Shown piece by piece: positions 40,542-58,761 of a stretch of 64,000 bases of DNA. The number at the start of each line of letters is the position of its first letter. Positions within the stretch are counted from its first letter, which is position 1. Position numbers and translations under genes: made by a program. The stretch covers positions 1 through 64,000 of the forward strand of contig NZ_AUAF01000002.1 of assembly GCF_000428585.1 (NCBI RefSeq), given 5' to 3'. Origin of the DNA: Zooshikella ganghwensis DSM 15267. GTDB lineage: Bacteria > Pseudomonadota > Gammaproteobacteria > Pseudomonadales > Zooshikellaceae. Below the pieces are notes generated by a model. The model was not told where the DNA came from. It did not search any database and saw only the letters and a program-made list of their open reading frames with translations.

Positions 40542-41693
40542 TTATTTTTCAGCCAGTCGTGCCACACATACTTCAGAAAATAAAGAAGCATAAGTTTCTT
40601 TTAGTGAAGACCAATACCACTTTTGCATCATAGGAGCCTGGGGCAATTTATTTTTTTGCTTTGCAATCACTAGTTGATATAAGCGCTTTGCTAAGTGCTC
40701 TGCTTCCTGCTCATGGGCTTCAGTATTTGATGGATAGCAGTAATCTTCAGCAAATAAATGAGGATAGGCCAGCCGATTTGGCACAACAGGAATACACCCT
40801 AAAGCCACCGCTTCTTGAATAGCTATACCCTGAAAGTCATGCAATGCAGTAGAAACTACAACATCACTGCTGGCCAGTAATTGATAGTACTCTTCACGAT
40901 TCTCAACAAATCCCCATTTCCCCACTATATCTGCGTATTTCTGATAAAACTTAGCAAAACACGTTGGCTTATTTCTAAATTGTTGTCCAACGACATGAAC
41001 GCATATATTCCTTGTTTTAGTCACTAGCTGAGCAATAGCTGAAAAAAAGCGTTCCGGCGCTTTATCATACTCCCAACGATGGTTCCAAATGATCTGTAAC
41101 TTCTGCTCAGGTACTGTAGGTTTAAGTTGAAAAAAGTGATCCTCTTGGAGAGGGACAGGTACTACCCTGCACTTTTGGACTATTTCTGGTATCACATTTA
41201 CTGGCACGCCATCTGGCAACTGGCCTAATAATTTTTTTGCTCCATATAAAAAAGTCTCCTGGTTGTAGATTGTATTAAACACCACACAATCAGCCACTAA
41301 TGCTGAGTAAAGTGTAATCACTTGAGCGCCCACAGAGTCAACCACATTTTCTTGAATAGGGTAGACAAACTGGTTTTCATGGAAATAAAGAATTGTAGGT
41401 ATTTTAGATAGTGTGGGTACCATTCCCCGCAGGGCTGACAGATCTGTCATTGATGTAGCGATGATTAAGTCATACGGCTGAAGTAGTATATCTCGATAGC
41501 CTAGCCCTAGCGTCAAGCTATTCCCTCGAATCCGCCACGAAAAAAAACGTGCAGGCAAAGTCAATACTGTCCATTCAATTGCAGGAAAGGCTTTCACGAG
41601 TCCTTTATGCCAATAACAATGACTCACTGCATCATATGGAGAGAGAAGCAAAATGCGTTTAGGAAAAATAGTTGGTGTATTGTTTTCTGGCAT
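40542..41693 (-). CDS. Glycosyltransferase, DUF3524 / QTMAN (GTDC1)-like
   Basis: A 383-residue GT4-type glycosyltransferase from MPENNTPTIFPKRILLLSPYDAVSH. The N-terminal half has the DUF3524 pattern: ILLLSPYDAVSHCYWHKGL, then WTVLTLPARFFSWRIRGN, then LIIATSMTDLSALRG and YFHENQFVYP. The C-terminal half has IIWNHRWEYDKAPERFF and the GT4 donor motif HDFQGIAIQEAVALGCIPVVP. The closest characterised relative I know is human GTDC1/QTMAN, which mannosylates queuosine of tRNA-Asp. The bacterial function is inference. The frame extends upstream via TTG into apeB; the ATG at 41693 avoids overlap and leaves a 55-bp divergent region. Confidence 0.75.
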   Translation of the reverse strand: MPENNTPTIFPKRILLLSPYDAVSHCYWHKGLVKAFPAIEWTVLTLPARFFSWRIRGNSLTLGLGYRDILLQPYDLIIATSMTDLSALRGMVPTLSKIPTILYFHENQFVYPIQENVVDSVGAQVITLYSALVADCVVFNTIYNQETFLYGAKKLLGQLPDGVPVNVIPEIVQKCRVVPVPLQEDHFFQLKPTVPEQKLQIIWNHRWEYDKAPERFFSAIAQLVTKTRNICVHVVGQQFRNKPTCFAKFYQKYADIVGKWGFVENREEYYQLLASSDVVVSTALHDFQGIAIQEAVALGCIPVVPNRLAYPHLFAEDYCYPSNTEAHEQEAEHLAKRLYQLVIAKQKNKLPQAPMMQKWYWSSLKETYASLFSEVCVARLAEK

Positions 41694-41748: not shown

Positions 41749-43065
41749 ATGAGTACATTATCAGACTTCAATCACCAGCTTCTGCAGTTTTTAAACTCTT
41801 CCCCAACACCCTTTCATGCTGTCTCAAGTATGACAGAGCTGCTTATAAATGCTGGATTTATACCTTTAAAAGAAAGTGAAAGCTGGTCACTTAAAGACTT
41901 TCAAGGATATTTTATCACACGAAATGATTCTTCCATTATTGCCTTTACAACTGGTAGTCAAGAATACTTCAAACACGGCTGGCGTTTAGTGGGCGCTCAT
42001 ACCGATAGTCCTTGCCTTAAGGTAAAGCCAAATGCTGATCTATACCAACAAAATTATTGGCAACTAGGGGTAGAGGTTTATGGTGGTGCTTTATTAAACC
42101 CTTGGTATGACCGTGATTTATCCTTGGCGGGCAGGGTTACTTTTTTAAATAGCCAAAAGCAAGTATGCAGTGCACTTATTAATTTTGAAGAGCCTATAGC
42201 GGTCATTCCCAGTTTAGCCATTCACCTAGATAGAAATGCCAACAAAGAGCGCTCTATTAATCCGCAAACAGATATTCCACCTATTTTAAGCCTGATACCT
42301 GAAGACAACACAAATAAGCCGACTCTTAGTAAATTATTAATTAGTCATCTTAATAGTGCAGGCTATCAAGATATTAAAGAAATATTAGACTATGAACTTA
42401 GTTTCTATGATAGTCAGGCACCAGCACTTGTTGGTTTAAACAAAGAGTTTATTGCTAGTGCTCGGCTTGATAACTTATTAAGCTGTTTTATTGGGTTACA
42501 TGCCTTACTTAATAGTGAGTATCAAAAAAACGAAGTACCTTGCCTGTTGGTATGTAATGATCATGAAGAAGTTGGCAGCCAGTCTCACTGTGGAGCACAG
42601 GGACCTTTCCTACAACAAACACTTACTCGAGTTATGGGATGCCCAATTACCGCAGCCCAGGTAATGGCAAATTCACTTATGATTTCCGTTGATAACGCTC
42701 ATGGAATTCATCCAAATTATGCTGACCGGCATGACGCAAACCATGGTCCAATACTAAATAAAGGTCCTGTCATTAAGCAAAACTGCAACCAGCGCTATGC
42801 AACAAACAGTGAAACAGCAGCTATTTATAAGTGGCTCAGTCAGCAGCAACAAGTTCCTTTCCAATCATTTGTTGTTCGAACAGATATGGCGTGTGGCTCA
42901 ACCATTGGCCCTATAACTGCTGGAGAATTGGGTGTAAGAACACTCGATATTGGGGTTCCTACTTTTGCAATGCATTCACCTAGGGAGCTTGCAGGCAATC
43001 AAGATGGCTATATATTAAATAATGTATTACAAGCCTTTTTTAAAACTACGGAACTACCTTCCTAA
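41749..43065 (+). CDS. apeB: M18 family aminopeptidase (ApeB)
   Basis: Dizinc aminopeptidase of 438 residues. Signatures in order: VGAHTDSPCLKVKP with the first metal histidine, ASARLDNLLSC with the bridging aspartate, LVCNDHEEVGSQSHCGA with the catalytic and metal glutamates, and ISVDNAHGIHPNYADRHD. MACGSTIGP and HSPRELAG near the end complete the family pattern. Cleaves N-terminal acidic or neutral residues in the cytoplasm. Divergent from the glycosyltransferase gene; a hairpin terminator follows. Confidence 0.94.
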   Translation: MSTLSDFNHQLLQFLNSSPTPFHAVSSMTELLINAGFIPLKESESWSLKDFQGYFITRNDSSIIAFTTGSQEYFKHGWRLVGAHTDSPCLKVKPNADLYQQNYWQLGVEVYGGALLNPWYDRDLSLAGRVTFLNSQKQVCSALINFEEPIAVIPSLAIHLDRNANKERSINPQTDIPPILSLIPEDNTNKPTLSKLLISHLNSAGYQDIKEILDYELSFYDSQAPALVGLNKEFIASARLDNLLSCFIGLHALLNSEYQKNEVPCLLVCNDHEEVGSQSHCGAQGPFLQQTLTRVMGCPITAAQVMANSLMISVDNAHGIHPNYADRHDANHGPILNKGPVIKQNCNQRYATNSETAAIYKWLSQQQQVPFQSFVVRTDMACGSTIGPITAGELGVRTLDIGVPTFAMHSPRELAGNQDGYILNNVLQAFFKTTELPS

Positions 43066-46283: not shown

Positions 46284-46360
46284 TGGCGGAGCGGACGGGA
46301 CTCGAACCCGCGACCCCCGGCGTGACAGGCCGGTATTCTAACCAACTGAACTACCGCTCC
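46284..46360 (-). tRNA. tRNA-Asp (GTC), copy 1
   Basis: Full cloverleaf on the minus strand beginning GGAGCGGTAGTTCAGTTGG, with anticodon loop CTGTCAC (GTC), T-loop GTTCGAGTC and encoded CCA. It follows tRNA-Val by 15 bases in one transcript. Identical to copy 2. Confidence 0.97.
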
Positions 46361-46375
46361 GAATCCTAAAAGAAA

Positions 46376-46451
46376 TGGTGGGCAGAGAGGGGATCGAACC
46401 CCCGACCCTCGCCTTGTAAGGGCGATGCTCTCCCAGCTGAGCTATCTGCCC
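46376..46451 (-). tRNA. tRNA-Val (TAC), copy 1
   Basis: Cloverleaf on the minus strand beginning GGGCAGATAGCTCAGCTGG, anticodon loop CTTACAA (TAC), T-loop GTTCGATCC and encoded CCA. First gene of the Val-Asp unit. Confidence 0.97.
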
Positions 46452-46471
46452 ATCTCTTAAGGACGGGGCGC

Positions 46472-46501
46472 ATTATACGCACTATAGACCACAGATTGCA
46501 A
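46472..46501 (-). promoter_or_regulatory. tRNA promoter, copy 1
   Basis: TTGCAA, 18 bases, TATAAT, then the GC-rich discriminator GCGCCCC on the minus strand. GC-rich discriminators of this type are typical of stringently controlled stable-RNA promoters. Confidence 0.8.
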
Positions 46502-46994
46502 CTTTCTTTTAATATTTTTCATTGGATATACCCTTCACGAATCATTTTTAGGGTTTGTTGCCAGCACTTTTGGCCACCAAGGATGGGTAGGAATGCAGTT
46601 TATGCATAATGACATGGATGTCATATAGTAGAGCAATGCAGGAGCTACTGCCGAGGAGCATTTAACTGTCACACCAGTCACTTATTAATATAACCGCCCA
46701 GCAGCGCTGTTATATCAATTAAAGTGGCTACCGCAAGTTTCACAGAAGTAAACTTGCCCAGGGGCTTCATCGCTTGACGGCCCTGCCCTTGGGGTATAAA
46801 AACCCTTCGTTCTGGGTATAGATAGCTACTTTTCAATAAACCAGTACAAGAAAAGTATTTCCACTCAGCAACTGGATCGCAATGTAAAAAGGGGATCAGA
46901 AAGCTGTATATCTAAAAATAAAGAGGACTGTATTAGCGGGGATAACTACGCTTAGAGGGGGCATCTAAATCAGATTATGGAGAAGATGAAATGA
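46478..46994. other. Spacer between the two tRNA units
   Basis: No gene is seen in 517 bases. It contains many inverted repeats: ATGACAT/ATGTCAT (46609-46624), an ATATAAC/GTTATAT stem near 46690-46715, and GCAAGTTT/AAACTTGC near 46733-46757. Two imperfect copies of a GGATG...AATGCAG motif lie near 46580-46650. It has the look of intergenic repeat sequence. Confidence 0.45.
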
Positions 46995-47071
46995 TGGCGG
47001 AGCGGACGGGACTCGAACCCGCGACCCCCGGCGTGACAGGCCGGTATTCTAACCAACTGAACTACCGCTCC
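46995..47071 (-). tRNA. tRNA-Asp (GTC), copy 2
   Basis: Same sequence as copy 1, with anticodon GTC and encoded CCA. Second gene of the upstream Val-Asp unit. Confidence 0.97.
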
Positions 47072-47086
47072 GAATCCTAAAAGAAA

Positions 47087-47162
47087 TGGTGGGCAGAGAG
47101 GGGATCGAACCCCCGACCCTCGCCTTGTAAGGGCGATGCTCTCCCAGCTGAGCTATCTGCCC
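47087..47162 (-). tRNA. tRNA-Val (TAC), copy 2
   Basis: Same sequence as copy 1, with anticodon TAC and encoded CCA. Confidence 0.97.
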
Positions 47163-57893: not shown

Positions 57894-58544
57894 TTAGTGC
57901 CCTGGTTCATCATTCCATAAATACTTGTGAAGCTGTAATTGCATGCGAACCGGTAGCCGGTCAGCAAGAATCCACTCCGCAAGCTGGCGAGGCTCAAGCT
58001 GGTGATGAACAGGAGAGAAAAGGACATCTGAAACCCGATCGGCTAAATTATATTCATCCAGCTTAAACACAGCCCACTGATAGTCTTCTTGGCTGCCAAT
58101 AACAAACTTCACCTGATCCTGTGGTTTCAAGTATTTAATATTGCTGTATAAATTGCGCTGTAGCTCACCCGAGCTTGGCGTCTTGAGATCCATAACCACA
58201 ACAATACGACTATCAACATGCTCTATTGGCATAGCCCCACTGGTTTCTAGTGAGACCTCATAGCCAGCATCAGCTAACAGTTTAAGCAATGGCAAGCAGT
58301 TCGGTTGTGCTAAAGGCTCTCCACCTGTAACCGTCACGTAATGTGGGTGATACTGCTGAACTTCAGCCATAATCGTTTCAAATGACCAAAGCTGGCCACC
58401 AGAAAAAGCATAGGCCGTATCACAGTAGCCACATCTTAGCGGACACCCCGTCAACCGGATAAACACTGTAGGTAAGCCTGCCGTTCTCGTCTCACCCTGC
58501 AGCGAATAAAATATTTCTGTCAAGCGAAGTTGCTTTTCACTCAT
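57894..58544 (-). CDS. queE: 7-carboxy-7-deazaguanine synthase QueE
   Basis: Radical SAM enzyme of queuosine synthesis. TEIFYSLQGETRTAGLPTVFIRL and the CPLRCGYCDT cluster motif (CX3CX2C) are near the start; VTVTGGEPLAQ is the SAM-site glycine loop. From MSEKQLRLTE it has 216 residues, as in Pseudomonas; the frame opens six codons earlier. In Pseudomonas queC follows directly, but here only 190 bp separate queE from nadA and no queC is present. Confidence 0.94.
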   Translation of the reverse strand: MSEKQLRLTEIFYSLQGETRTAGLPTVFIRLTGCPLRCGYCDTAYAFSGGQLWSFETIMAEVQQYHPHYVTVTGGEPLAQPNCLPLLKLLADAGYEVSLETSGAMPIEHVDSRIVVVMDLKTPSSGELQRNLYSNIKYLKPQDQVKFVIGSQEDYQWAVFKLDEYNLADRVSDVLFSPVHHQLEPRQLAEWILADRLPVRMQLQLHKYLWNDEPGH

Positions 58545-58761
58545 GTTACTTTCTACTGCCATAAAACCGGATTGACGTTCAATTACTGCATAATTCTACT
58601 CACAACAGGCTTATAGGGTTAAATAAGAACAAACTCAAGGGCTTTAAGCCCAATGACAAAGTCTCACACCCATGAATGAGAAGTATTCTTTACCAGAAAG
58701 CCCATTAAGCAAGGAGATTCATTAAGCGGCGAGAGTATAGCGGAAATCGGGATAATGAGGA

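Follow-up and report, generated by a model that had tools for sequence, protein, structure and literature searches.

The gene at 40542–41693 on the minus strand of the window (the whole stretch of 64,000 nucleotides analysed here) is, judged by its sequence, a bacterial member of the QTMAN family, whose animal representative decorates the queuosine of a tRNA with mannose. On balance, its product is probably a retaining GT-B (GT4) enzyme which glycosylates queuosine 34 of tRNA, most plausibly with α-mannose from GDP-mannose and on tRNA-Asp. The evidence consists of the family, the fold, the conserved GT4 positions and the presence in the genome of the queuosine and GDP-mannose pathways, from which we infer the acceptor, the sugar and the tRNA.

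The gene and its family

The open reading frame fills exactly the interval singled out in the earlier note, which named no strand; on the plus strand the first frame across the same interval is full of stops. An in-frame TTG at 41771, upstream of the ATG, would add 26 amino acids and would reach into the beginning of the M18 aminopeptidase gene, which is divergent. The gene, its domains and its conserved motifs are as follows.

40542..41693, minus strand: bacterial QTMAN-family glycosyltransferase gene (ATG at 41693, stop at 40542, 383 amino acids)
41148..41657, minus strand: QTMAN_N domain (PF12038), residues 13–182 (180.7 and 181.9 bits, whole profile)
40668..41120, minus strand: GT4 nucleotide-sugar domain (PF00534, Glycos_transf_1), residues 192–342 (E 3.9e-10, and structure matches)
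41520..41558, minus strand: basic/aromatic motif, residues 46–58 (R49, W53 and R54 invariant in 40/40 covering pieces)
41370..41381, minus strand: HENQ motif, residues 105–108 (39/39 covering pieces)
41061..41078, minus strand: RWEYDK motif, residues 206–211 (R in 41/41, K in 40/40)
40812..40841, minus strand: HDFQG...E motif, residues 285–294 (H285 and G289 in 40/40)

The match to QTMAN_N, which we take to be the former DUF3524, covers the Pfam profile from end to end (1–168 of 168; E 2.7e-53; bit score cut-off 25) and is, as a sequence match, far beyond chance. Together with the PF00534 match it bears out the DUF3524 and GT4 domains described in the earlier note, while the likeness to human GTDC1 proposed there stands at the family level only, by way of a Pfam model named after GTDC1. 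The bacterial protein has the same full-length arrangement of QTMAN_N and GT4 domains as animal QTMAN (GTDC1, a tRNA-queuosine α-mannosyltransferase); it differs in that its host also makes queuosine and carries GluQRS, and in that mannosyl transfer by it is putative. No NCBIfam model scored over its cut-off with the 383-residue protein, and its own genome contains one PF12038 match.

The distribution of the family in the class is patchy. QTMAN_N was found in 16 of the 276 genomes of the class sample (13/216 genera) and in 26/397 genomes of the phylum sample, with one match per genome in all 40 distinct carriers, and 14 named control genomes, E. coli included, gave no match. A scan of genome contigs returned at least 590 pattern matches, at least 578 of them relatives, and the best 80 loci (L017–L096) were studied. 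Nearly all of these are titled Gammaproteobacteria (e.g. Marinobacter, Marinobacterium, Microbulbifer, Spongiibacter and Amphritea), joined by a Mariprofundus, a Zetaproteobacteria MAG and a Myxococcales MAG. One MAG titled Klebsiella pneumoniae (L081) is probably mislabelled: its gene groups with those of MAGs from uncultured Gammaproteobacteria, and its gene order is theirs too. Three loci (L004, L005 and L013), with E at position 18 and an HDFFG or HDYFG motif, make up a second, divergent group of bacterial members, whose branch is fully supported.

A mobile origin was considered and rejected: there was no plasmid match, and the 17 pattern matches on viral contigs include no relative. Seven phage records match part of the C-terminal glycosyltransferase domain only, at below 40% identity. 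Among the phage sequences, large Erwinia, Xanthomonas and Sinorhizobium phages (OQ603359.1, PV764601.1–PV764603.1 and PV764938.1) encode GT4-like proteins whose likeness is confined to the C-terminal part.

Predicted fold and conserved positions

An AlphaFold2 model built with 77 aligned proteins (pLDDT 92.3, pTM 0.90) predicts a complete retaining GT-B enzyme resembling MshA, BshA, PimB' and PimA. Full-chain GT-B folds match it at Z 25–32, among them sucrose-phosphate synthase (Z 32.5, 2.5 Å over 334 residues), BshA (Z 30.8), MshA (Z 30.1), PimB' with GDP-mannose (Z 28.0, 3.2 Å over 328 residues) and PimA with GDP-mannose (Z 26.5, 3.7 Å over 317 residues). The last two are GDP-mannose-dependent GT4 α-mannosyltransferases which share the full-length fold, but they are 12–14% identical to the bacterial protein and their acceptors are phosphatidylinositol lipids. 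Because many of the fold matches use UDP-sugars, the fold cannot tell GDP-mannose from these donors. Natural manQ is an α-allyl mannoside (PMC8654956), and the retaining fold matches agree with this α linkage, a point in favour of the main reading. A solved QTMAN structure was sought in the PDB by sequence and none was recognised, the matches being other GT4 enzymes aligned over the C-terminal domain; likewise, no QTMAN entry stood among the best 50 Foldseek rows or the best 50 VIA rows for the model.

Conservation was counted on 40 loci found by an HMM of the N-terminal domain, each position being scored where covered. These were preferred to a set of 111 sequences, in which counts are biased because the HENQ and HRWE motifs had served to find or to filter the loci; the profile used to align the 40 loci was itself built from the 111-sequence set. 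Invariant where covered are H25, R49, W53, R54, HENQ 105–108, R206, D210, K211, H285 and G289. At position 286, 21 loci have D and 19 have E; at position 294, 39 have E and one has Q. The acidic pair D286/E294 presumably corresponds to the E-x7-E signature of GT4 enzymes, and we place H105, R206, K211 and this pair at the GT4 catalytic and phosphate contacts as expected from the family rather than from a residue-level superposition. By analogy with GT4 enzymes, H105 is likely the counterpart of the active-site histidine, and R206 and K211 are likely donor-phosphate contacts. Residues 46–58, singled out by their conservation, are a candidate contact for the acceptor or the tRNA.

The gene could in principle be a decaying or inactive relic. 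In one genome (G048, locus L016) the copy is broken and split over two reading frames, through loss or assembly error, and an in-frame stop falls inside the matched stretch in 4/80 of the best related loci. The window copy is itself intact, with the conserved positions present and a confidently predicted fold, and we regard a relic as very improbable here.

Queuosine supply and gene neighbourhoods

The genome contains the queuosine genes whose presence the earlier note had suggested checking: QueA (C62:752-1768) lies directly before TGT (C62:1849-2937), QueG is on contig C8 and QueE in the window, and a search for QueH in this genome found none. A GDP-mannose synthase is also encoded (GMP_PMI, 720.5 bits, C37:4616-6019). 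Among carriers of the glycosyltransferase, QueA is present in 16/16 genomes of the class sample and in 36/36 isolates, the latter being drawn from the closest relatives in the matches listed and not independent of one another. TGT is over its cut-off in 16/16 class-sample carriers and in 18 of 21 further genomes, mostly MAGs; it was not picked up in G691 or G702, was no more than partial in G705, and in the stretch of G691 examined 10,900 of 19,901 bases are N. QueG is found in 51/52 carrier genomes, the exception being G066 (the carrier of L013; 96% complete, 7% contaminated), where neither QueG nor QueH was detected. A GDP-mannose synthase match is present in all 52 carriers and is over the cut-off in 50, the two low ones being fragments.

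These figures must be set against the class as a whole, in which QueA is over its cut-off in 254/276 genomes and GDP-mannose synthase in 200/276. Carriers and non-carriers do not differ significantly in QueA (16/16 versus 238/260, Fisher p 0.63) or in GDP-mannose synthase over the cut-off (14/16 versus 186/260, p 0.25), and counting any match to the latter gives a weak difference (16/16 versus 203/260, p 0.049). Co-occurrence was thus rejected as proof, since a gene as general in the class as QueA gives the comparison no power; with such baselines the figures permit a queuosine link without proving it.

The surroundings of the gene include the following.

41749..43065, plus strand: divergent M18 aminopeptidase gene, beside the glycosyltransferase gene
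46284..46360, minus strand: tRNA-Asp (GUC) gene
46995..47071, minus strand: second tRNA-Asp (GUC) gene
57894..58562, minus strand: queE, queuosine precursor synthesis (TIGR04349, 358 bits; cut-off 300)

The queE gene and the two tRNA-Asp genes which the earlier note had placed in the window are indeed there. They lie 16 kb and 4.6–5.3 kb away, respectively, so that their proximity makes no operon argument and is weak evidence for a link to queuosine. The tRNA-Asp genes belong to a tRNA-Asp/tRNA-Val pair that is present in two successive copies, both on the minus strand (46284–47162). One flank of the glycosyltransferase gene holds MinC, a MinD-like protein, MinE, RapA and, 2.2 kb off and past the min genes, a lipid A acyltransferase; on the other flank are the M18 aminopeptidase and a tail-specific protease.

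Neighbours are mostly housekeeping genes, both in the window and in relatives. For the best 80 loci, up to two nearest ORFs were scanned, which covered 145 of 156 neighbours at 77/80 loci. The commonest family is tyrosyl/tryptophanyl-tRNA synthetase (20/145) and the rest are scattered; no glycosyltransferase family appears among the 25 commonest of the 94 Pfam families in these 145 neighbours, and the 865 ORFs of the same 80 loci include no other GT4-like protein. The tyrS gene lies downstream in 23/80 loci, often as the next gene, and tRNA-Tyr is also a queuosine tRNA. In 16/80 loci the M18 aminopeptidase gene lies upstream on the same strand, whereas in the window it is divergent.

Searching the best 80 loci with queA, tgt, queG, queE and gluQRS from the window's own genome recovered queA and tgt; none of the other three was found there. 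In 14/80 loci the glycosyltransferase gene lies 4–10 kb from queA or tgt, in two different arrangements. In Spongiibacter, Zhongshania and relatives, the M18 gene (in most), the glycosyltransferase gene, tyrS and then queA-tgt follow one another on the same strand, with queA 4.3–9.8 kb on (L034, L037, L053, L065, L074, L077 and L093, the last reaching queA only). The second arrangement, from MAGs of other Gammaproteobacteria, has tgt, secD, secF and mltD pointing towards the glycosyltransferase gene, with tgt 5.9–8.7 kb away and queA not beside it (L044, L049, L054, L057, L081, L089 and L095, each on one contig stretch). Part of this second arrangement, with neither tgt nor queA seen nearby, occurs in L092, L079 and L088; L082, which fits only if a contig break is bridged, and L069, which runs into Ns, were left uncounted. 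Apparent proximity to queA in L024 (Marinobacterium iners) and L076 (a Marinobacter) was dropped: the coordinates are close, but the contig that carries queA has another length in each case.

In a quick protein tree with weak deep forks, the wider group with the second arrangement falls on a single side of a branch; the first arrangement lies elsewhere and requires two changes. By rough arithmetic, two genes would come within 10 kb of each other by chance in ~1/200 of cases per independent arrangement, for a genome of 4 Mb; with four places tried, two arrangements are suggestive but fall short of proof. The gene is near tgt in none of the 16 class-sample carriers, the window's own genome included: in 15 the two are on separate contigs, and in G241 they are 113 kb apart.

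Acceptor choice and coexistence with GluQRS

Animal QTMAN mannosylates the queuosine of tRNA-Asp at an allylic hydroxyl (PMC8654956, PMC12518689). The bacterial enzyme GluQRS (YadB, glutamyl-queuosine tRNA-Asp synthetase) is encoded in the same genome as the QTMAN relative, on contig 61, and both would modify tRNA queuosine in bacteria. Its glutamate is likewise reportedly attached at the allylic hydroxyl. GluQRS differs from the QTMAN relative in being a glutamyl-tRNA-synthetase paralogue, and what it attaches to the queuosine of tRNA-Asp is an amino acid rather than a sugar (PMC3542578). GluQRS is present in 14/16 class-sample carriers against 156/260 non-carriers, a positive association (p 0.033, ignoring kinship); 12 of the 14 are listed over the cut-off, and by their E-values G138 and G236 are placed over it and G066 and G136 under it. 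Mutual exclusion was therefore rejected, and a bacterial enzyme acting as the animal one does would meet GluQRS on one base. Either tRNA-Asp serves both enzymes, or the QTMAN relative acts on a different queuosine tRNA, at a different hydroxyl or with a different sugar; this is the main complication for mannose on tRNA-Asp.

The second branch of that choice, in which tRNA-Asp is left to GluQRS and queuosine is glycosylated otherwise (in tRNA-Tyr, -His or -Asn, at the other hydroxyl or with another sugar), has the association just described and the recurrent tyrS neighbours on its side. The recurrence of tyrS could go back to a single ancestral gene order and could be without meaning, the family takes its name from an enzyme which acts on tRNA-Asp (PMC12313893), and the GDP-mannose synthase match in every carrier fits mannose. 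We think this alternative unlikely, though it deserves serious attention. Less probable still is a glycosyltransferase for a polysaccharide, a lipid or a small molecule that merely shares an ancestor with QTMAN. In its favour, GT4 enzymes switch acceptors readily, the enzymes with the nearest solved folds work on lipids, on sugars or on thiol precursors, there is a lipid A acyltransferase gene in the vicinity, and the family has a second, clearly distinct group. Against this, each carrier has a single match with no other GT4-like ORF around it in the best 80 loci, the neighbours are mostly housekeeping genes, no copy of the gene was found on plasmids or viral contigs, the N-domain motifs are invariant, and queA or tgt lies nearby in two arrangements.

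We thus favour glycosylation of queuosine 34, in which a probably cytosolic enzyme would transfer a hexose, most likely mannose from GDP-mannose, with retention (α) to the cyclopentene-diol of queuosine, most likely in tRNA-Asp. The mannosyl-queuosine proposal of the earlier note gains from the family, the intact GT4 positions, the supply of queuosine and GDP-mannose, and the queA/tgt proximity, which is seen in two other lineages. Counting against it, beyond GluQRS, are the carrier lacking detectable QueG and QueH, the gaps in TGT, the distance from tgt throughout the class sample and the nearby lipid A acyltransferase gene. More tentatively, we propose that some gammaproteobacteria make mannosyl-queuosine and that in most of them the queuosine of tRNA-Asp is either shared between two enzymes, the QTMAN relative and GluQRS, or contested by them.

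Reviews from 2020 and 2024 (PMC7694415, PMC12710937) describe manQ as a modification of eukaryotes or vertebrates and gluQ as a bacterial one. No report of bacterial mannosyl-queuosine was found in the literature searched, a search outside which key original papers lie. Judged by its sequence, this bacterium may produce a tRNA base decorated with a sugar, of a kind which we found described for animals only. If so, a bacterial hexosyl-queuosine would extend the bacterial set of tRNA modifications, and the animal enzyme would have a bacterial counterpart or origin. How such a modification coexists with GluQRS would then need explaining and, if both enzymes use the queuosine of tRNA-Asp, a single wobble base would face a choice between sugar and glutamate. 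Carriers include genera with isolates, such as Marinobacter and Spongiibacter, and would offer a genetically tractable way to study a modification of unclear purpose in animals.
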